Source: Mesostigma viride (lineage: Eukaryota; Streptophyta; Mesostigmatophyceae; Mesostigmatales; Mesostigmataceae). From it: DNA of 64,000 nucleotides. Positions 32,275 through 44,994 of the stretch are shown here, piece by piece (the stretch's first letter is position 1; each line of letters begins with the position of its first letter). The position numbers were made by a program, and so were the translations under genes. The DNA is taken from contig RPFO01000027.1 of the NCBI GenBank assembly GCA_009746045.1, positions 2,268,202-2,332,201 of the forward strand, read 5' to 3'. The notes beneath the pieces are model-generated. The model did not search any database, was not told the DNA's origin, and saw only the letters and a list, made by a program, of their open reading frames with translations.

Positions 32275-32309
32275 ATTCCCTAGCCTAATATGGATTTGTA
32301 CTACAGCAC
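32275..32309 (+). repeat. Left terminal inverted repeat
   Basis: Begins ATTCCCTAGCCTAATATGGA and ends AGCAC. It matches the complement of 42019-42053 at 34 of 35 positions. Confidence 0.85.
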
Positions 32310-32389
32310 TAGTACAAATTGGTTTTTTTTCAACATTGTTATTTAATGCCTCTCATAGGTCCAAAGCATGGAGGTCAGTGTCCCAACAT

Positions 32390-32775
32390 GTGGTGACACC
32401 GTGACACCGTGACACCGTGACACCGTGACACCGTGACATCACAACACTAGCATTTCACAGTTTGTATGATGTCACATGGTAATGTGACGTTCAGCACTGG
32501 TATCATGATGTCCACATGTAAGCTAAAGCGCTGCCCAACATGACGTGACACCGTGACATCATGACACCGTGACATCGTGACACCGTGACACCGTGACATC
32601 ACAACACTAGCTAGCATTTCACAGTTTGTATGATGTCACAAGGTAATGTGATGTACAGCACTGATATCATGATGTCCACATGTAAGCTGAAGCGCTGCCC
32701 AACATGACGTGACACCGCACGACATCATGACACCGTGACATCGTGACACCGTGACATCGTGACACCGTGACATTG
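32390..32775 (+). repeat. Left subterminal array of GTGACACC octamers in a higher-order repeat
   Basis: Blocks of (GTGACACC)n alternate with a spacer containing CATCACAACACTAGCATTTC, ATGATGTCCACATGTAAGCT and GCGCTGCCCAACATGAC. The composite of about 165-175 bp occurs about 2.5 times. GTGACATC variants are interspersed. Such subterminal repeats often bind transposase in other DNA transposon families; that role is inference here. Confidence 0.85.
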
Positions 32776-33492
32776 AATCTTGCTATGTATGGAGATATCG
32801 TTTTTCACTTCTCTAACTTGAGTAATGCAAGCACAAGGCAACATAATTAGTTTTGAACCCCTGAAAAGAAAGAACCTTACATGCCCTACGTCTCAGAACA
32901 CTGTTGCATCATGCATGACACCAGGACACGGTGACAAAGTGGCATGGCACAAGATACAACTGCATTTGACACCAAATATTGATAAGGCTAAACAACTAGC
33001 CTTCATTCCTAAATAGCCATGCATGCATCACATTCTTTACTGAAATATGACATGGATCTACTAAGTCAACCATGCAGTCACATGTGAGTCTCAAACCATT
33101 AAAACAGGTATGCGCATATGTGTATTCCATCTGGGTTTGATGCCCAGGCGCATACCATTAATTAGACAACTAGTCCAAAACAATGCATGTCTCACTTAAT
33201 AGTCATCATAATACACATCTTGTTCCAGATTGTTATTTGGTATTTCACCAGACGCCTCCGAGGCACTGCGTCCGATGATGCCTGGTGCAAAACAATAGCA
33301 TTTATAGCACGCAAAACAAGAAAGCAAAACAAGAAAGTTACGTATTTTCTCCGACACCAAACGTCATCGTACCCTCCATGCAGCAGCCTCGTGCAAGCTG
33401 AATTGCATAGAAGCTGCAACTACGATTCTATTCATGAAAGCATACAGGCAGGCAGTCGACATCCCAAGCAGGATAACCCCCCTAAACAACAA

Positions 33493-33597
33493 CCCCTCGC
33501 GGGGGGCGCGTGAAAACGGCAAAGGCAAAGCGGAGCCCGCCGCCTTTGGGCGGGCGGAGCGGAGCCTTTGCCGTTTTCACGCGCCCCCCGCGAGGGG
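33493..33597. repeat. Perfect 34-bp inverted repeat with nested GC stem
   Basis: Arms are 33493-33526 (CCCCTCGCGGGGGGCGCGTG through CAAAGGC) and 33564-33597, exact complements over 34 bases. The 37-base loop contains a second stem, GCCCGCC/GGCGGGC. The whole block is far more GC-rich than its surroundings and could form a cruciform or RNA hairpin. It has no target duplication that I can see. Confidence 0.95.
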
Positions 33598-33653
33598 AAT
33601 TTTTTTTTGGAAAATGGGGCAAACCATGGGGGTTTTCTTACGGAATTTACCTG

Positions 33654-33908
33654 CGATCTTCCTTGCGATGCAGTTTTGCCTGGTCGCTCGCGCTCCCCGT
33701 CCGAACCGCCATCAGAGGCTGCATTAATTCTATTAAGCTCATTCAGCGCGCCCCGGACGTACACGGTTGATTTCTTATCTTTTGGTTGTTCATCTGCCTT
33801 CCCGTCTACAGCAGCGCCATCATCGGCTGTCTCGGCATGCTCTGCACGTTCATCCGAGCCATACTGTTCATGGATTTCTGCCGGCGGCTGCTGTTCGCCG
33901 CTAGCCAT
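33654..33908 (-). CDS. First exon of a small acidic/hydrophilic protein in the TIR element
   Basis: An ATG at 33908 (minus) opens a frame with EQYGSDERAEHAETADDGAA and DKKSTVYVRGALNELNRINA, up to a plausible donor (CAG|GTAAAT) after residue 85 at 33654. Beyond it, the frame runs through the GC palindrome and looks artificial. Downstream exons are likely at about 33400-33280, but no phase-consistent model was found. No domain was recognised. It is divergent from the transposase-like gene with about 560 bp between starts. It could encode an accessory protein of the transposon. Confidence 0.45.
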
Positions 33909-34466
33909 CGCAGCTATATCCTATCAAACTCCGCTGTCCTAAAAACACGAACAAACACGAGGGCACGCAAATTATCTACGTCGTGCGTCCAGAAGTACTT
34001 GTCGAGCTTAATCTGTATATTATTTTGCGTTCAAGTTCTCCGGACCTCGTGACATCGGGTGCATGCCTTCGTTCCCGAGGTCGATGTCCCGAGGTCCCGA
34101 GAACTTGCGGCCCAAATTTAGGTGGTGTCCCGAGGTCCCGACACCTGATTGGCCCGTTGAGATTCGCTCAGAATCAAGAGCAATCAATGCGGACCACGAG
34201 TAGCTCGGACCTCGTGACACCACCTCGGGCCAGGCGGGTGCACTTGCACGCCGATATGTATATCGACAACGATGGAAGATTGCATCGGTAAAATGTATTA
34301 GCCGGGTAATAACAACTCGGGCAGACCGGGCTGCAGTTGGAGCCCGTTTTGCCATGTTTAGATTCCACCCCACTGGCGTGGGGACCTACGTTTGCCATCT
34401 GCACACGTAGAAAAGGGGGCGGAAGTGTTATTTAATTTGCACGGGTGCCCAGTGGACATCATAGCC
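33909..34466. promoter_or_regulatory. Divergent intergenic region of the two transposon genes
   Basis: CGGACCTCGTGACA occurs twice in direct orientation (about 34039 and 34207). GTCCCGAGGTCCCGA words also repeat at about 34085 and 34128. These clustered copies lie between divergent starts and may be regulatory or protein-binding sites. This is based on repetition and position only. Confidence 0.4.
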
Positions 34467-37400
34467 ATGGCGAGGTCCACAGTTTTCATGGACCCCGGCC
34501 CAGGGGCGCTGGGTTGGCAGATTTTGGCAGCGTTTGTCTTGCTGCTAATCCTGGGATACGTCGTTTTAACCACCATGGCGAGGCGGGGCGTCCGGTTGTC
34601 TGCTGCTGCCGTGTTAGAGAAATGCACCTCGGATGCGTCCCTGAATGCGGCACTTAGCAGGGACTGGGATTGTGATTGTGGTCGGCATTGTTTGAGAAGC
34701 GTGCATAGGGAGGAAGTACGTGCAATGAGAACTGACTTGTGGAGAAAGACGCAGGCGGATAGGAAAGACTTTATCAGAACCCAACTTAGAATGGGCGGTC
34801 AGAGAGAAGAAGAAATTCCGGGAAGCTTCCGTCACAAACGCAGTCGAGACGAGGATTTTCTTTTCGCAGTGGAGGGCTACGTTGTTTACCCGGCTACCAA
34901 GCATAATCCAGAGTCGACAGCCCCCTTTCGGCATCGCATGTGTGAAGCTGCTTTCCGCCGTGCTTTGTATATCAACCCCAATATTTGGCAGACGGCTGTA
35001 AAGGAGGCAACCCGCCCCGCCCCTTCACCTGGCACTCGTCGGGATGTGGAATCCGGCTTGGGTAGCACTGCTGGACGGCGTGTTCGAGGATCCCGTTCAA
35101 TATCTGCCAGGATTGGGGAGGCCAAAGCGCTTTGTGAGCTATATGGATTCGGCGTTGGTTACGCCCAGCAGTTGAGAAAGATCCTCGAGATGGCCGCAGC
35201 ATTCTTGAGCAACCCTGCAAGAAGACTTTGTACTCGGAGTATGTTAGGGAGAGACAAGATTACAATGCACCTGTGGTTAGTATTTCGCTTTTCAGGACAA
35301 TCTTCAAAGCAGTGGCGACAATCATGGAAGTCCATGTTGAGCGTTTTCGCACAAAGGTTATGGGTGAATGTTCCCGCTGTCGAAAGCTGAAGGATGCCAT
35401 TTTGTTTTACCGGACCACTGACCGGGCCAGGTGGGAGGCCAGTAAGGAGAAGTTAGCTGATCACACTGATTTCTTTAATGGGGAGCGGATGGCTTATCTG
35501 CAGCGAAGGTTCGAAGGCGCCAAGCATTTTTTTGTTTCCATAGTCATGGATGGTTTGGCAAAGATGAAGACAGCGGTTCCAACGAGGGGGAGCGCCTCGA
35601 AAGAGTGGCTTAGCAGCCGCCAGCTTCATATACCGTACCAGTTAGTCTGCTCTATTTTGCACGGGGTGAGGACGTATTTTTGGGTCATCATGCCATGGGT
35701 AGCTAATTCTGAGGTTTCTGGTAATTCAGGGCGCGTCACGGCAACAGTGCTCACGCATCAGTTGTTGGAAGTGGTTGTTGAGCGTCCATGGGAGAAGTCC
35801 ACTGATCCTGAGATTCGTGAGTTTGGCCTTGCCCCTAACCTCGTCCTTCAAGTGGATGGGGGTGGGGACAACATGAACAACGAGTTGTTGGGGTTCCTAG
35901 CTGTTCTCATTGTCCGCCGCCTCTTTGCTCGCATCAGGGTGTGCCGGCTTCCACCGGGACACACACACAATGATGCTGACCAAAGGTTTGGTTGGTTCAT
36001 CCGGTGGTACAACGGCATCAAGAACCGTGTGTCAGATCTTCCACCGGTGCTGATGCTGACGTTTCAAGACGTGCTGCAGGGGCTGAAGCGTGCCTTTGCA
36101 CATTTCTACGACGACGGCCCTTCTGGGAGCACGGCGATCATCAGTCCACTGCCACCATCTTCCAAGGTTCGTTTGTCTTCATAGATTTATGTTGCCATAG
36201 TGGATGAGTGCATTGCCAGTGTGTTGGTAGGCGGGGCATGTAGTCATGGGGATGCGCGCGCGCGGCACGGTGGGGGGAGCGCGTGGCGGCCAGTTTTTTA
36301 TGCTATTCATGGGGATGCGCGCGCGCGGCACGGTGGGGGGAGCGCGTGGCGGCCAGTTTTTTATGCTATTCATGGGGATGCGCGCGCGCGGCACGGTGGG
36401 GGGAGCGCGTGGCGGCCAGTTTTTTATGCTAGTCATGGGGATGCGCGCGCGCGGCACGGTGGGGGGAGCGCGTGGCGGCCAGTTTTTTATGCTATGTAGC
36501 TGCAGAGTTGAATCACAATTTTCTGCTTACTTGTCTTTTACTGCTACCGTATGTGCGTTTCCTTTCGCGGCTACTGTGTCCTTTTGCAGCTGATCAACGC
36601 AGCGCTGGACTTCACCACGTGGCTACGTGGCTGCGTGGACCCAGACCTTGGGCGCTGGGTCAAGTCCGCTGATGTTGTTGTGGACGCGTCAACCAATCAA
36701 CCCGTGATCGAGCGTCATCCGGTCAGCAAGATATTCGATATCGAGTTGTTTGGCCATCGAGCTGCAGACGACGGACCGGATGTTGGTGATGACTGCTATT
36801 TCCGCTACCGCCTTGCCACGGCGGAGGCCTTAACGGATGTGCCCGCCAATTGGTGGAGGCCTCTTGGGCCGAACGGGGAGGCCTGCGACATGGTCAGCGT
36901 CAACTCGAGGCGCGCGAGTGATGGCAAACAGCTTTTTGGCGCGCTGGTCATGGAGGCAGCCAAGGCATGCACCCAAGGGCAGCCCGGGTCTCGCTGCTTT
37001 CGCCGATTGGGATGGCGATCACGCAATCCGCTCTCACTGCTCTAAACTCAGTCGGCAGTTTAATTCCAGACGTCATGACGGAGGAAAAGCAAGCAGAGCT
37101 CAACGACGAGATCCGCGGCTTTCCCACTGACCCAGCGCAAGTAGAAGAGTGCGCGTCGGTGTTTGACGTCATGATCCAGAAGCTGACAGAGTGCAGGGAG
37201 CAGCAAAAGGACAAGCCCCTCCCTTTCCGTCTCCATTCTGCAGGGGATCAGGCGATCATGCGGGCTACCCGTGCCCTGGAAGCGCCGCTGCATCCAATTG
37301 TCACCCACGCTGGCGACCGCCGGCACGAAGTGCATGCTGCCATTCAGCGGGCGCGACGCGCGGCTGAGCAGCTGCCTGCCGCCCCTGCCCACCCTGCCGC

Positions 37401-38283
37401 CCTGGCCGCCCCTGCCGCCTCTACCGCTTCTGCCGCACATGCCACGCCTGTGGTCGCCTCCAATCTGCCTGCAGATGCCAGCGGTGGTGCCCGGACTACT
37501 GCGACCTCGGACCGGATTTTTACGGTAAATCCCGGCATCATCTCCCACGGCGATCTGCTTATCGTCAAGAGGCCTGCAGTAACGTGCGGGGATGGCATGC
37601 CGTGGCCAGAAGAGATTCTGGTAAAAGTCACGGATGCATCTACAGTGCGTGCATGCGGGACTCTGACAGTTTCTGTGTATTATTCACCCTCCTGGGAAGG
37701 GCAGTTTAGCAAGCTCGTACTCGCCGGTGGTGGGCCGGGCCTGGTAGTGCCGGCGTCAGATATCATTGTTCAACACTGGACAGTTGGTGCAACAGGGCAG
37801 GCTGTCCACACTCCCACGCTTACAGCAACACGGAAACTGTCTGGTGCAACCCTCCAGGCTTTGCGAGACCATCCACATGTGCACTTTGCCGGATTTAAAA
37901 CACAGCAAGCTGCCGCCGCGACATCCAAAGCTGCATGTGCGGCATACTTTGCTGAGCACGGTCTGCAGGCGCTAGAAGGGAGGAGGCTTTGTGCGTTGTG
38001 GGGTGCTTCCAAGACCCGTTTTCATGGGTGGGTCGTAGGAGTGGATGAGAGTGATGGGAAGGTGAAGATTGAGACAATGTGGTCTGACGGCAAGGGGGCT
38101 TCATACACCTCCTTGGAGGAAGTATTGAGTTTCATATGCGGGTGCCCGCATGCGGCTCGTGCCTTTGGCCGTGCGAAGTTTTTTCAGGATGACACCGCAG
38201 GCGGTGTCGGGACGGAGCGGGATGTGCCGCCCGATGCTTCTACTAGTGAGAGTAGTGATGATGAAAGTGATGAGGATGAGTGA
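34467..38283 (+). CDS. Transposase-like protein (DUF7869-type core) in the TIR element
   Basis: The start ATG at 34467 has a good GCCATGG context. The N-terminus carries a hydrophobic stretch (WQILAAFVLLLILGYVVL). Then comes a region with CDCGRHCLRSVHREEVRAMR, typical of the N-terminal half of this family. The core (35228-36166) contains LYSEYV, VSISLFRTIF, GECSRC, LVLQVDGGGDNMNNELLGF and LPPGHTHNDADQRFGWF. That last motif is characteristic of a large eukaryotic family believed to be transposase-derived. The frame changes near 35130-35200, either through a very short intron or a frameshift. An intron at 36167-36589 (AAG|GTTCGT, TTGCAG|CTG) is phase-consistent. A second frame change near 36917-37070 may be another intron. 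The C-terminus holds an Ala/Pro linker, a GWVVGVDESDGKVKIETMWS segment and an acidic end. The family name is from memory. Confidence 0.65.
36240..36496. repeat. 63-bp tandem repeat in an intron of the transposase-like gene, 4 copies
   Basis: Units at about 36248, 36311, 36374 and 36437 contain CATGGGGATGCGCGCGCGCG, then GGTGGGGGGAGCGCGTGGCG. Copies are nearly identical. The unit length is divisible by three, so the frames stay open, but the array lies inside a well-supported intron. Confidence 0.92.
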
Positions 38284-41200
38284 GGGGGCGTGGGACTGAT
38301 ATTAAGGGGAGGTGGCACCCCAAAAACCTTAAAATTTGACCCATGCTAATATCACTTGAAATTCATTTGCACAATGCTGAGTTATGATTGGGGGCACTAA
38401 ATAACATCTCTAGTGAGTTGTCCATGCACTTGTTGGGGGTACTACCCCCATATATACGCCAATAATGCGCTATAAATAGCAAAAGACGCTAATTAGGGCT
38501 GGGTATGCCCCAGCCAATTCACTTATTTGTTGGCTACCAAAAATCAAGGTCATATAGTTCCCTGAGTTTGTAGCTTGCTGAGCTATTTACATCATGGAAA
38601 TGGCAAAACCTTGAACAGTTATTAATTTTCCCGCAAAACAGGTCATTTTTTACCGGACATTGGGAATAAACATGTCATAAACACTTCCGATAAGGCCACA
38701 AAATCAACAAAAATTCCGGCTAACAGGGGGACAGCGGTGTTCCAAGTCCCAGGTCATTCCGACAAGTCTAGCTCAAGTTATTGCGTCAGACGTGTTTTCA
38801 GAAAAATGCCCGCTAAAACAGAAAATGTCACTATATCAGCCCTTGTAAGCATCCTGCACAAGGCAGGCAGGGCAAAACCAATCCCCCTTGGGCTTCTTAG
38901 TCAACGGGGGGTCAGCGCAGCACCCATGCAGTCCTCCCTTGCACCCGAATGTGCTGCACAGCAGGAAAGGACACCGTCAATTTCATCGGGGACGCACATG
39001 CAAGGCAAGGAATATCATCACATCATTCTCATCATCACTACTACCTTCCCCATCGTCCTCCTGCCCCTCCCTTTGCATCACGTCGTGGCAGCCACCCTTA
39101 AAACAGGTCATTCCGACAAGTCTAGCTCAAGTAATAAGGTTATGCGTGCTAAAACCTGAACATAAGCTTAAGGGGGGTTTTCTTTGTATACATGGCCACT
39201 TAGGCATGATGTTTTCCATCCAAAAAGCCAGAAAGCATGCCCCACTCGATCACAAAACATAAGCAAACGGCTAGGCACCACATCTGCCCTCACCTGCCCT
39301 CGGCATGGCCAACCTTGCCAGCGCAAGCATAGCAACACGATCGCTAGGCATACATGCCAAGAGAGCATACACTATACTCTACCCAAGGTTACCTTGTAAA
39401 CATCATGCCAAGAACTCAGCAAATCTATGATCAAAAGCACATATAATTAACTCTAGCACACTGATGACGACACATGCTCAAGGTTGGGGGTCACTGTGGC
39501 ACGCACAGATGGGTTTCCTAGACGACCACTCACCACCTGACAAGGCGCTAAGGACCACTCAGAAAGCAAGTAAACACAATCACACTTTACATGCCATCAA
39601 CATGGATCAAATCCATGCTGAATATGTTATGAAGTACAAAGGGGTGGCCACGCACCTCATACTCCTTCACCGTCCCTCGAGCATGGCCAGCCTTATAAGT
39701 ACGCGAATAGCAATTATGATGATGGCACTAACATGCATTACCAGCATTCTCTATGTTTCTCCCAGGTTAGAGTGTAAGGGTTATGCCAACCAAGCTTACC
39801 AACACAGCAACAACTCCTTAACTGCCCTACCCGACATGGGCAACAAACTGGAACTATGGAGGGCAAGGAACCAAGGAGATCATGGCATACAAAGCTTGCA
39901 TGCAGTCAACCATGTCAACCATGGTTGGCTCAGCACATTGCTGTCTTGTCACATCATCATAACAAGGAAAGCTCAAGTAAACCAATGATGGCAGCTATCT
40001 ACATGCAGTCACACAAATGCAATATCTCCAACATGATCGTCGATAAAAAAACTTCCTTCCCTGCACGATAAAGTGCAAAGAAACCAGTGGCGGCCGTTCA
40101 GCTTCTGACCGCTGTGATGCCGCTGCGAGGAAAGGGTGCGTCACTATCACACAACAAGAAGCGTCCATACGCACAACATCCTTGCCAGAACACGTGCTAT
40201 GAAATCCCTTACGCCTTCCCTAGGATCTATCGGTTGAGACTGAAGCGGATTTGATCAAGACATCAACGAAAAGAAGCTAAAGCTGCCAGGTATTCGTCAA
40301 CACGACGGCGAGCAACGGAGAGTTAACTGGCGGAAACTGACCAAAACGAACGCAAAAAACTTCGAACGATGAGCTCTTCGAAGAAAGAACTGATAGTAGA
40401 TAACAGTCGCCACAAATCTATACCTTGCCCTCGTAGATCCCTCGCCCAGGCGCGCAACAACTGCCGTTCTTCCATGGAAGGTTCCGACATGCACTGCGCA
40501 GGCCTCAAGAAATACTTACCGAGAATGGCCGAAAATGTAGCAAAAAGCACCCGTTCGGTTTAGAATTCGATGCTACCGATATGAATGCATCCTTCACGGT
40601 CAAAAAGACCCCCAAAACAGAGAATTTACTGCCGCAATCACGAATTCTATTTTATTCCGCGCGACCAAAAAATGCAGATTACCCCCCATGCCGACGGCAG
40701 TAAAAGAAAGCAGCGGTATTGTAAACCAGCCACTTGCCGCCGCAACCCAACATCATTAAATCATCGTCTTCAACATCCAAGCATTTTTTTTGCATTTCTC
40801 TAGCCCTACATTGCTAGTTTCGCCTAAACGCAGTCGCCATGGCCACTTCCGCAAGTGGTGCGCGCACGGAGCACCCACTTTTCACGGTACGGCCGGTGCC
40901 GCGAATTTTTTCGCGCGGAAAATATTCGGCGCGCCACGTCCCCTTAAGTTAGACAATTATATCTGTCCATGTGACAGTGTGCAAGGGTGCATAACAATCA
41001 GTGCATGGCTGGTTATCGCGAGGTCATGTTTTGCCTGGCATGGTCCCTCTAATGATGACTCTATGTCATAAATGTCCCTCACTATAACGACTCAATGAGA
41101 ATGTGTTATAATTTTTCATTTTAAGTTAGACATGTATGATGTCAATGAGGCACCCATGAATATACTTAGTTGTCTCTTTTATACAGTCACATGATGTGTT

Positions 41201-41290
41201 CCCACGTACCATGCTGAAATAAATTATGTGCATGCTTAAATATTGTCAAGGCAAGCAGCAATTAATAAACGCTTAGCTGCAATTTGTGAA
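38284..41290. other. Right half of the TIR element without a confident gene
   Basis: The direct repeat CAGGTCATTCCGACAAGTCT (then AGCTCAAG) occurs at 38750 and 39104. The region is AT-rich and contains no long protein-like frame. A minus-strand exon candidate at 40493-40424 is listed separately. The remainder may be 3' sequence, introns of a minus-strand gene or non-coding cargo. Confidence 0.4.
40424..40493 (-). CDS. Candidate exon of a minus-strand gene in the TIR element
   Basis: Between an acceptor (CTGCGCAG) and a donor (CAAG|GTATAG), the minus strand encodes MSEPSMEERQLLRAWARDLR. Just upstream (about 40540-40515), another stretch ends in a consensus donor GTAAGT. Good splice signals and protein-like composition suggest a 5' exon. 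I could not extend the gene downstream and recognise no family. Confidence 0.25.
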
Positions 41291-41299
41291 TGCTTACAT

Positions 41300-41935
41300 G
41301 TGTATAGTTAGACAACTACAATGTCAATACAATTCTGCAAAGATGTGTCTTTACATGCAATATGAGGCGCCATGGTGGTGTCACGGTGTCACGGTGTCAC
41401 GGTGTCACGGTGTCACGGTGTCACGGTGTCACGGAGTCACGGTGTCCAGGTCATCTAGGGCAACCTTGTCATTATCAAATAGACATATAATCCCCATTAC
41501 TTAATCACTAAATGTGCAAAGATGTGTGTTTACATGCAATATGAGGCGCCATGGTGGTGTCACGGTGTCACGGTGTCACGGTGTCACGGTGTCACGGAGT
41601 CACGGTGTCCAGGTCATCTAGGGCAACCTTGTCATTATCAAATAGACATATAATCCCCATTACTTAATCACTAAATGTGCAAAGATGTGTGTTTACATGC
41701 AATATGAGGCGCCATGGTGGTGTCACGGTGTCACGGTGTCACGGTGTCACGGTGTCACGGTGTCACGGTGTCACGTTGTCCAGGTCATCTAGGGCAACCT
41801 TGTCATCATCAAATAGACATATAATCCCCATTACTTAATCACTAAATGTGCAAAGATGTGTGTTTACATGCAATATGAGGCGCCATGGTGGTGTCACGGT
41901 GTCACGGTGTCACGGTGTCACGGTGTCACAGGTCC
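41300..41935 (-). repeat. Right subterminal array of GGTGTCAC octamers, about 4 higher-order units
   Basis: Each unit of about 160-175 bp has (GGTGTCAC)n followed by GGTGTCCAGGTCATCTAGGG, CAACCTTGTCATTATCAAAT, AATCCCCATTACTTAATCAC and TTTACATGCAATATGAGGCG. The octamer is the reverse complement of that in the left array, but the spacer sequences are unrelated. Confidence 0.92.
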
Positions 41936-42018
41936 TATGAACTTCCCCTTCCTCAAAGACTTTAGTTGAGATGTTAGATGCATAGAAATGCAACTTTGAA
42001 AAATGAAGTACAAATGGC

Positions 42019-42053
42019 GTGCTCTAGTACAAATCCATATTAGGCTAGGGAAT
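42019..42053 (-). repeat. Right terminal inverted repeat
   Basis: Read on the minus strand from 42053 it begins ATTCCCTAGCCTAATATGGA, matching the left end with one mismatch in 35. Confidence 0.85.
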
Positions 42054-42081: not shown

Positions 42082-42591
42082 ATTCATTCATTCATTCATT
42101 CATTCATTCATTCATTCATTCATTCATTCATTCATTCATTCATTCATTCATTCATTCATTCATTCATTCATTCATTCATTCATTCATTCATTCATTCATT
42201 CATTCATTCATTCATTCATTCATTCATTCATTCATTCATTCATTCATTCATTCATTCATTCATTCATTCATTCATTCATTCATTCATTCATTCATTCATT
42301 CATTCATTCATTCATTCATTCATTCATTCATTCATTCATTCATTCATTCATTCATTCATTCATTCATTCATTCATTCATTCATTCATTCATTCATTCATT
42401 AATAAGCAGGTGACTGCGTCACGTGGGTGCCAATACAGAGTAAAGGAACCTTCAACCCTATATACACAGCGAGAAGGAGGGAGGGCGCCCTATAGTAGCT
42501 TCTCTCACTGCCGCAAGTGGGCAGGCCACAGAGCGCTCTCTCCACAGCACATTTGGTGCCGGGGCGCAACACTGTTGGTGCAATACAACCA
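42082..42591 (-). mobile_element. LINE 3' end with a (ATTC)n tail of about 320 bp
   Basis: 42406-42591, on the minus strand, matches the retroposon end at 13380-13560, including GGGCGCCCTCCCTCCT and CCCACGTGACGCAGTCACCT. It is followed by TATTAATGAATGAATG and an uninterrupted (AATG)n tract down to 42082. The tract sits where the LINE tail should be, so it is an expanded tail. The encoded SFIHSFIH frames are artefacts. Confidence 0.8.
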
Positions 42592-43223
42592 TTAATTCAT
42601 TAATTAATTCATTAAACTTGTGCTCGGACCCGTTGGGGAGTCACGGAGCATTAACCCCGATGGATGGATGGATGGATGGATGGATGGATGGATGGATGGA
42701 TGGATGGATGGATGGATGGATGGATGGATGGATGGATGGATGGATGGATGGATGGATGGATGGATGGATGGATGGATGGATGTCCAGATGGATGGATGGA
42801 TGGATGGATGGATGGATGGATGGATGGATGGATGGATGGATGGATGGATGGATGGATGGATGGATGGATGGATGGATGGATGGATGGATGGATGGATGGA
42901 TGGATGGATGGATGGATGGATGGATGGATGGATGGATGGATGGATGGATGGATGGATGGATGGATGGATGGATGGATGGATGGATGGATGGATGGATGGA
43001 TGGATGGATGGATGGATGGATGGATGGATGGATGGATGGATGGATGGATGGATGGATGGATGGATGGATGGATGTCCAGATGGATGGATGGATGGATGGA
43101 TGGATGGATGGATGGATGGATGGATGGATGGATGGATGGATGGATGGATGGATGGATGGATGGATGGATGGATGGATGGATGGATGGATGGATGGATGGA
43201 TGGATGGATGGATGGATGGATGG
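42592..43223 (-). mobile_element. LINE 3' UTR remnant with (GATG)n expansion of about 560 bp
   Basis: The 3' hairpin region and tail (42592-42655: TTGGGGAGTCACGGAGCATT, TTAATTCATTAATTAATTC) match those at 43224-43275. The rest of the copy, up to 43223, is (GATG)n with two identical interruptions (TGTCCAGATGG at about 42781 and 43073). The interruptions are about 292 bp apart and indicate an internal duplication. Confidence 0.8.
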
Positions 43224-44994
43224 ATTAATTAATTAATTAGACTCGTGCTCCCGTTGGGGAGTCACGGAGCATTAACCCCGATGGATGGATGGATGGGTGC
43301 AAACAGTCCTACCGGTCTAATCTATCTACATCGGCTACATACTATATCTTTCTAACAGCATTCTAACGACAACATCTATCTAGGCAGCCGCACGCTGCCC
43401 TAGGGGAGCTATCTGGCGTGCCTCCCACGGGATTGCACACGCGGGCGCTTCCCCACTGGGGGGGGCTCGTTGTCCTCTATGACCTGGGCCCACTTGGCCT
43501 TGTCCATCATCTTCTTCCAAATCACAGAGAGGCCTAGGCCCCCCATGTCCTCTACTAGCTGTTCTTTGAAGGTGCGGGCCTTGCGGCGTCTAACATCACT
43601 GGGCCCAGCCCACGTCAGGAGGTGCCGGCCAGGCTGGGCTGGTCGCAGTCCTGCGGGGGGGCCACGTGAGGTGTCTACCTGGTTGGTGCGAGCTAGATGC
43701 CCTACTAGCTGCAGCCTGCAGGCGTCGTTGCTTAATGGTGCTGGTGATATAGGGCATGCCCTGGTACAGGTCCTCATTGCGGACATGAGCAGCATATCCT
43801 ACTCTGAAAATGGAACGCAGCATGCTGGTGACCGCGCCGTCCAGCTTGCGGGCCAGGTCGGCGGTGAGGGTCCACGTCTCGGCCCCATACGTGAGAACAG
43901 GAAGGACGAGGACCTCAAGTGAACAGGTCCTGTTTCTCAATCTTGCCCAGGGGCTTGCGCCACAGGGCCCGGTACTGGCGTAAAGTGTGCCAGGCGAGGG
44001 AGATGCGATGGTCCACATCGACCTCGCAGCTGGGGAGCAGGCTGCCTAGCAGCTTAACGCGGTCCCGATACAGGACTCGAGAGCCGTCTAGGAGATAGAG
44101 GGGCGGCGGTGAGTTGGTGAGCCCAACCGCCAGGGCCTCTGTCTTCTTGCTGACCTCAAGCCCCACTGCACGGGCCTCGAGAGCCAGGCAGTCAAGCCAT
44201 GTCTGCACGTGCTCAGTGTCCTCGAAGAGGGTGGTGTCGTCTGCGTAGATGATGACTGCCAGCCGAATCTCCGTGTCCGCACCGCCATGCCAGAATTTGT
44301 TAGCAACCTGCACTCCTGGTTCCCTGCCCACGATGCGGGCAAATCGCTTGCGCGCCTGAATCATTACGTATTCGACAACAATAATGAACAGGTAGGGCGA
44401 CAGCACGCAGCCCTGCCACACACCCTTCTGTAAAGGGCATGGGGGCGTGGTCCCGTAAGAAGTGCGCACCGAAGTGGTGGACCCTTCATACAGGTTGCGG
44501 ATGACAGCAATCAGGGGGCGGGGGATCCGGAACAACTCGAGGATGTCCCAAAGCGCATGCAGGCCAGAAAACCGAATCGAAGGCTTTGATGAAGTCCACC
44601 AGCACAAGGTGCAAAGGGGACTCACCAGGCTGAAGGCGTTGCAGTTCCTCCACCAGTCGGCGAGTAGCGAAGAGCGCCTGTACTGTGTTGCGACCTGAAC
44701 GGAAGCCGTGCTGAGTCTCGCTGAGGTGACCGTCCAGGGCCGTGCGCGGCCGGTTCAGGATGAGCCGCATAAGAAGCTTGAGGGGGGCACTTTGAATGCA
44801 TACCCCTCTGTAGTTGCCGGGGTCGGCAGGCGACCCCTTGTTCTTGTACAGCATCGTGCGAAAACTGTGTTGCCAGGCCGCAGGAGGTGGTTGCGACGAC
44901 AGCAGAAGGCGGTTGCAGATGTCCCGGAAGAGCAGCATAACACCTGTGTCCTCGAATTCGGCTGCAAGTTTTACAACTGCCGAGTCTATCACGA
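43224..44994 (-). mobile_element. LINE with reverse transcriptase, 5'-truncated, best-preserved minus copy
   Basis: On the minus strand from 44994: RDICNRLLLSSQPPPAAWQH, KGSPADPGNYRGVCIQSAPL, SETQHGFRSGRNTVQALFAT, LVDFIKAFDSVFW, then in another frame GVWQGCVLSPYLFIIVVEYV, AVIIYADDTTLFEDTEHVQT (intact YADD) and TYGAETWTLTADLARKLDGA. The C-terminal region (HLARTNQVDTS, SVIWKKMMDKAKWAQVIEDN) ends near 43409. The 3' UTR has CCGGTAGGACTGTTTGCACC, three CATC units, a hairpin at 43245-43271 and the tail at 43224-43240. Frameshifts near 44560 and 43910 inactivate it. It is a sister family of the plus-strand copies at 2408-4632. Confidence 0.88.

Follow-up and report, generated by a model that had tools for sequence, protein, structure and literature searches.

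The stretch analysed here, a window of 64,000 nucleotides from the streptophyte green alga Mesostigma viride (contig RPFO01000027.1, positions 2,268,202 to 2,332,201), contains an element with inverted ends that encloses a gene matching the Pfam domain DUF7869 (PF25273). An earlier reading of the window from its letters alone (the original prediction) described two 35-bp ends that agree in inverted orientation at 34 positions, and this was confirmed: window positions 32275–32309 and the reverse complement of 42019–42053 are identical at 34 of 35 positions. The 9.8-kb boundaries drawn there were right as to the inverted ends but 3 bp too wide on each side, as comparison with other copies shows agreement only within 32278–42050 (CCCTAG...CTAGGG). 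Because the copies agree only within these limits, the outer bases ATT and AAT are flanking DNA that is complementary by chance, and the terminal inverted repeat (TIR) of the element itself shortens to 32 bp.

The overall span also stands, but 2.64 kb of it is a repeat of another family that is found widely elsewhere and is nested within the element (Table 1). This repeat has the ends GGGGA..TCCCC; the copies on contig C1565 (read in its letters) and on C224, C1413, C680 and C777 (by match coordinates) are uninterrupted at this point and have a single TTAA. The best 40 of 3,158 candidates for it gave at least 43 matches, of which at least 24, the window's included, span exactly positions 1–2637. 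The element proper is therefore about 7.13 kb long, and the C1565 copy measures 7,130 bp.

The frame in the window matches DUF7869 with 45.6 bits (E = 7.9e-12), above the cut-off of 26, and contains the GHTHNDADQRFG motif; among the element frames tested, this is the sole Pfam match above cut-off. The gene had been described as multi-exon, and although the gene and its motif hold, frame breakage accounts for some of the multi-exon appearance: relative to the C224 copy, the window gene differs in length at three points, once by 2 bp and twice by 4 bp, and the C1565 copy shares its split frames. These length differences, near 35140, 36965 and 37060, could be excision footprints of earlier nested insertions. 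We infer one intron, from its GT..AG borders and from frame continuity, followed by an exon 2 without any match to Pfam at E ≤ 1. Both exons are open in three copies (C1413, C224 and C1579), as stop-to-stop frames of 606 residues for exon 1 and 587 for exon 2, and the predicted protein has about 1,130 residues. The window copy belongs to those with a broken gene and in addition carries the nested TTAA-flanked repeat.

To the 26-bp end, with up to three mismatches, correspond 77 sites in the 439.9-Mb genome, 74 of them perfect, against none for a reversed-pattern control; the inverted ends are therefore not due to chance. The left 201 bp of the element matched at least 40 places nearly in full at 85–100% identity (the best 40 of 219 candidates), and the right 141 bp likewise matched at least 40 places (the best 40 of 247). 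Matching 39 left with 39 right ends by contig, strand and distance gave 35 pairs, a right end on C480 and an end of a second type (C1690:2781584) having been excluded beforehand. The paired copies range from 6,771 to 12,959 bp (median 7,585); left ends on C772, C129, C63 and C480 and right ends on C1967, C1227, C337 and C208 have no partner. The other copies for which the original prediction had proposed a search thus exist, and its fear that the ends might occur alone, as an unrelated dispersed repeat, was not borne out, since the ends pair and the unpaired ones are a minority.

An identical 3-bp target-site duplication (TSD) flanks 30 of these 35 pairs, a result with a chance probability of about 2e-49 if the pairs are independent and each agrees with probability 1/64. 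The TSDs comprise 22 different triplets, which indicates little target preference. Two sets of flanks each recur on two contigs (C777/C680 and C737/C557) and look like the same insertions, so that about 28 of the 30 duplicated pairs are independent. Fixed TSDs extend to the second end type, or type B, represented by a left end on C1690 that is 85% similar to the window's and differs in its terminal sequence. The type-B 26-mer occurs 159 times in the genome (control, 0), and a 3-bp TSD was found in all ten pairs sampled; these were taken from the first part of 100 listed places, passing over unpaired ends, a 30-kb pair and C139. A degraded DUF7869 gene has a type-B end (C335:2986220) about 1.1 kb beyond it.

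Empty counterparts of the insertions were sought by joining the 35 pairs of flanks, keeping one TSD copy, and comparing them with the retrieved loci and the window. The junction is crossed in 45 matches; we inspected the 20 with at least 80% identity, as distinct from the 25 below it, and 11 of the 20 are free of gaps within 20 bases of the junction. These 11 represent four sites: C777/C680, whose counterpart at L059 is the best (99.2% over 481 bp), C1801:5827802, C1468:1629499 and C1724, the counterpart of the last having the triplet TGA and not TAA. At two more sites, C557/C737 and C1413:2023485, the junction is exact with gaps nearby. The empty sites come from the same assembly and not from the related strains in which they had been proposed to lie, and no counterpart of the window's own insertion site was present among the retrieved loci and the window. 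What defines a TIR transposon is found here: fixed inverted ends in many copies, a TSD of fixed length, and empty sites with one copy of the TSD. Judged by this comparison of copies, the inverted ends are those of a recently active TIR transposon.

The DUF7869 gene travels with these ends. Of 31 near-full matches to exon 1 at 99–100% identity, 29 sit between paired ends, which bears out the proposed link between this gene family and a mobile element with defined boundaries. Most copies of the gene are shortened, 26 of the 31 having a frame of 397 or 398 residues in place of 606. A search for derivatives that share the ends had been proposed, and such derivatives exist: all eight that were aligned (from 25 loci) have lost exon 2, with a piece of exon 1 fused directly to the element's right part, and over at least 1.4 kb their 5′ part has no match in the window element. 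The 5′ part of a common derivative, L014:1-1416, is one such stretch. Exon 2 itself was listed nine times at 99–100% identity. Because the shortened copies outnumber the full ones, this pattern suggests that they may have been moved in trans. That the spread was recent is indicated by a 1.1-kb stretch that is identical in 23 of 30 loci.

To examine the protein, we aligned eight members from the M. viride genome (two of them, L113 and L117, 95% alike) with P0001, a DUF7869 protein. P0001 came from one of three protein searches for remote homologues, each confined to the best 8000 candidates by shared words; another gave the Mesostigma gene model P0002, and the third gave no homologue. All nine match DUF7869 (best E 9.9e-32), and they fall into a window-like set with 44–61% identity to L011, P0001 at 26%, and a second set at 23–24%. 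Invariant in all nine are 27 columns, including a CxxC, three arginines, D361, D463, GHTH, D502 and D504 (numbered in exon 1 of the L011 reading). D463 and D504 are separated by exactly 40 residues in every member and D361 and D463 by 79–101; after D504, no acidic column is invariant in the nine. Three invariant acidic residues (D361, D463 and D504, with D502 as a further one) are what a DDE/D transposase has, and the 40-residue spacing fits such an enzyme. We infer this assignment of the triad, and with it an RNase H-like fold of the domain. No member matched any transposase Pfam model at E ≤ 10 in a search whose HMMER filters drop most weak matches, so that the profile search advocated in the original prediction delivered DUF7869 but no known transposase family. 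A sequence search of the PDB gave no relative (one weak unrelated match, E = 1.4), and in viral contigs scanned with the alignments A1 and A2 (48 and 38 pattern matches) there was none either.

The gene has been retained as the families diverged. Between families, NG86 counts for exon 1 give proportions of synonymous (pS) and nonsynonymous (pN) differences of 0.78 and 0.29, 0.74 and 0.40, and 0.71 and 0.42, and for exon 2 of 0.76 and 0.35; synonymous positions are near saturation, whereas nonsynonymous ones are not. On these counts, the DUF7869 gene is under purifying selection, and it remains so in families at 67% and 53% identity. The 53%-identical subfamily, with divergent frames beside its gene, is present in 14 places that agree over 7.3 kb at a rounded identity of 100%; as L112:1-7300 is matched end to end there, the repeat extends beyond both of its sides. 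In the genome as a whole, PF25273 has at least 150 matches over the cut-off (the best 150 of 275 candidates), whereas none of 14 control genomes contains a match. The openly licensed literature yielded no paper that names DUF7869 or PF25273, whose function is recorded as unknown.

Table 1. Features of the element in the window (positions of the 64,000-nucleotide stretch)
Feature	Position	Strand	Remarks
Whole element	32278..42050	+	9,773 bp, of which about 7.13 kb remain once the nested repeat is subtracted; ends fit the paired copies and the genome-wide end search
Left terminal inverted repeat	32278..32309	+	Identical to the right end at 31 of 32 bases, including all of the first 26
Right terminal inverted repeat	42019..42050	-	From comparison with the left end
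Left flanking triplet ATT, at the expected TSD position	32275..32277	.	Unequal to the right triplet
Right flanking triplet AAT, at the expected TSD position	42051..42053	.	One base from ATT
Left subterminal array, octamer GTGACACC, units of about 164 bp	32393..32772	+	11 exact octamers
Right subterminal array, octamer GTGACACC inverted, units of about 163–171 bp	41377..41929	-	24 exact inverted octamers
Divergent open frame adjoining the DUF7869 gene, possible second gene	33432..33917	-	No significant similarity to a divergent frame in L112 (BLASTP E = 0.088)
Putative transposase gene, exon 1: hydrophobic segment at the N terminus, cysteine motif, catalytic-like DUF7869 domain	34467..36166	+	One frame break in the window copy
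Putative intron, with a 63-bp x 4 minisatellite at 36244–36495	36167..36589	+	GT..AG and frame in relatives
Putative transposase gene, exon 2: acidic C terminus, no Pfam match	36590..38283	+	Two frame breaks in the window copy
Nested repeat of another family, 2,637 bp	38307..40943	.	TTAA on both sides; not in five other copies compared

These results make it very probable that this TIR DNA transposon encodes its own transposase in the DUF7869 gene, and they support the earlier interpretation of a transposon with a transposase-type gene, with the proviso that the gene of this copy is broken. In our best reading, the lineage would use a cut-and-paste DD(40)D transposase that works much as CACTA transposases do and yet fails the CACTA motif test. 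The enzyme would bind the octamer arrays (the left subterminal GTGACACC array is a candidate binding region) and pair the ends, and cutting would be carried out by an RNase H-like Asp-Asp-Asp centre formed by D361, D463 and D504. The freed ends would then be joined to target phosphates 3 bp apart, a spacing proposed to give rise to the 3-bp TSD after repair. Most copies, being shortened or broken, would be moved in trans by the few in which both exons are open.

Several observations weigh against this reading. The window copy has no matching TSD (ATT/AAT), nor do four other pairs (C1457, C887, C2100 and C1468:359567, the last two with damaged left ends). Nine target sites have a counterpart that reaches 80% identity or more, and three of them do not fit a clean empty site: C1801:809376 has GCA for GTA and a 4-bp gap nearby, C1551 has a gap at the TSD, and the counterpart of C1690:6626884 is without the triplet. 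As to the fold, what stands so far is a crude Chou-Fasman propensity profile. In addition, the N-terminal approximately 45 residues of four window-like proteins (L011, L118, L112 and P0002) contain a conserved hydrophobic segment (Kyte-Doolittle 2.5–2.9 over 19 residues), and such a membrane-like segment is odd for a transposase. Finally, as 26 of 31 gene copies are shortened, another transposase could serve the ends.

Among known transposons, the closest in character are the CACTA elements, which carry subterminal repeat arrays. It is possible, if unlikely, that we are dealing with a divergent CACTA/EnSpm element of the CMC group whose transposase has drifted past the Pfam models. The two share a 3-bp TSD (within the 2–5 bp of the clade), TIRs, subterminal arrays, a predicted DDE/D transposase and deletion derivatives, and a TSD of 3 bp is given for EnSpm, as for Harbinger, in excerpts of the source (PMC12730594). 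The same excerpts define the CMCT clade by a C(2)C and an H(3-4)H between the second D and the last E (PMC12730594); in contrast, both motifs are absent from all nine DUF7869 members, which have 40 intervening residues there, provided that the triad is correctly assigned. The termini differ as well, being CCCTAG..CTAGGG and CCCTAAGC..GCTTAGGG here and CA..TG in most of the clade. The CACTA model Transposase_21 is matched by 0 of 9 members, and the genome contains at least 150 Transposase_21 copies of its own (the best 150 of 239 candidates, many with equal scores), located elsewhere: none of the matches listed falls inside the 35 element pairs. On account of the failed motif test, the lack of a transposase Pfam match and these separate Transposase_21 copies, we do not file the element under CACTA.

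Other families fit less closely, as far as excerpts of the sources describe them. Zator has a 3-bp TSD and AcademX one of 3 or 4 bp (PMC10045372); the former is thus alike in TSD length, but 0 of 9 DUF7869 members match the ISAzo13/Zator-type model. PIF/Harbinger elements, again with a 3-bp TSD, have targets of the pattern TNA (PMC12477816), in contrast to the diverse triplets here, and no transposase Pfam match links them to the DUF7869 members. The KDZ group (Kyakuja, Dileera, Zisupton) consists of large transposons with big transposase genes (PMC12477816) and is present in green algae (PMC8226300), but Zisupton has a TSD of 8 bp as against 3 bp here, and no KDZ match was obtained in the Pfam search. 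Pfam includes both ISAzo13/Zator-type and KDZ models.

It is considerably less likely that the DUF7869 gene serves as cargo or regulator while a different transposase, for example from another element, moves the ends. The amplification of mostly shortened gene copies would suit this, as would the loss of exon 2 and the replacement of the 5′ part in the eight aligned derivatives, and a second, divergent frame adjoins the gene in the window, with two such frames beside the gene in a related element. However, when that window frame was compared with a divergent frame in L112, no significant similarity emerged (BLASTP E = 0.088), and the frame's standing as a conserved second gene is unsupported. 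DUF7869 as the sole above-cut-off Pfam match in the element frames tested, the retention of the gene under selection in families at 67% and 53% identity and the invariant acidic triad all argue against a mere passenger. As for segmental duplication or an assembly effect in place of transposition, insertions with the same flanks on two or more contigs (C777/C680, C737/C557/C772 and C129/C63) do indicate that the assembly holds duplicates, but most insertions differ in their flanks and have fixed ends, exact 3-bp TSDs and, in several cases, empty counterparts, making this explanation negligible.

A wider reading of the DUF7869 transposon is that the domain is the catalytic part of an unrecognised eukaryotic transposase superfamily with several families in this alga, characterised by DD40D, an upstream CxxC, GHTHxDxD, a 3-bp TSD, CCC..GGG ends and octamer subterminal arrays. 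We regard this as a tentative proposal, with a chance of being right that falls somewhat short of even. Under it, the hydrophobic N-terminal segment of some families might serve as a membrane anchor. Members of the group might already be filed among the algal ‘EnSpm’ entries of Repbase/Dfam. If the wider reading is correct, all other DUF7869 proteins would be either transposases or domesticated forms of them; and if the group is a superfamily of its own, some ‘unknown’ repeats, left so by transposable-element libraries that lack it, would become classifiable. The transposon suggests a concrete role for a domain of unknown function, and this role can be tested, since its ends, TSDs and empty sites are mapped and there are copies in which both exons are open. 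As DUF7869 matches are numerous in the genome, such elements may contribute much to the genome structure of a host lineage near the streptophyte base.

Some further observations concern the relatives and the surroundings of the element. In the 53%-identical subfamily, which includes L112 (C1:7216800-7226799) and L119, the two divergent frames are 383 and 430 residues long. The second DUF7869 set (for example L113–L117) has long open frames, such as those of 753, 1,219 and 1,729 residues, and many places of equal score. The gene model P0002 (Mesostigma viride Mv22949-RA.1) combines an N terminus 65% identical to that of the element protein with a cobalamin adenosyltransferase domain (PF01923), which may be a gene fusion or an annotation artefact. 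In the 5′ region of the window element, a 58-bp foldback with 83% complementarity (33484–33606) is possibly another small nested element. Directly past the right end lie long simple-repeat arrays, at 42082–42400 (ATTC) and at approximately 42640–43230, the latter a repeat that reads as WMDG-type frames.

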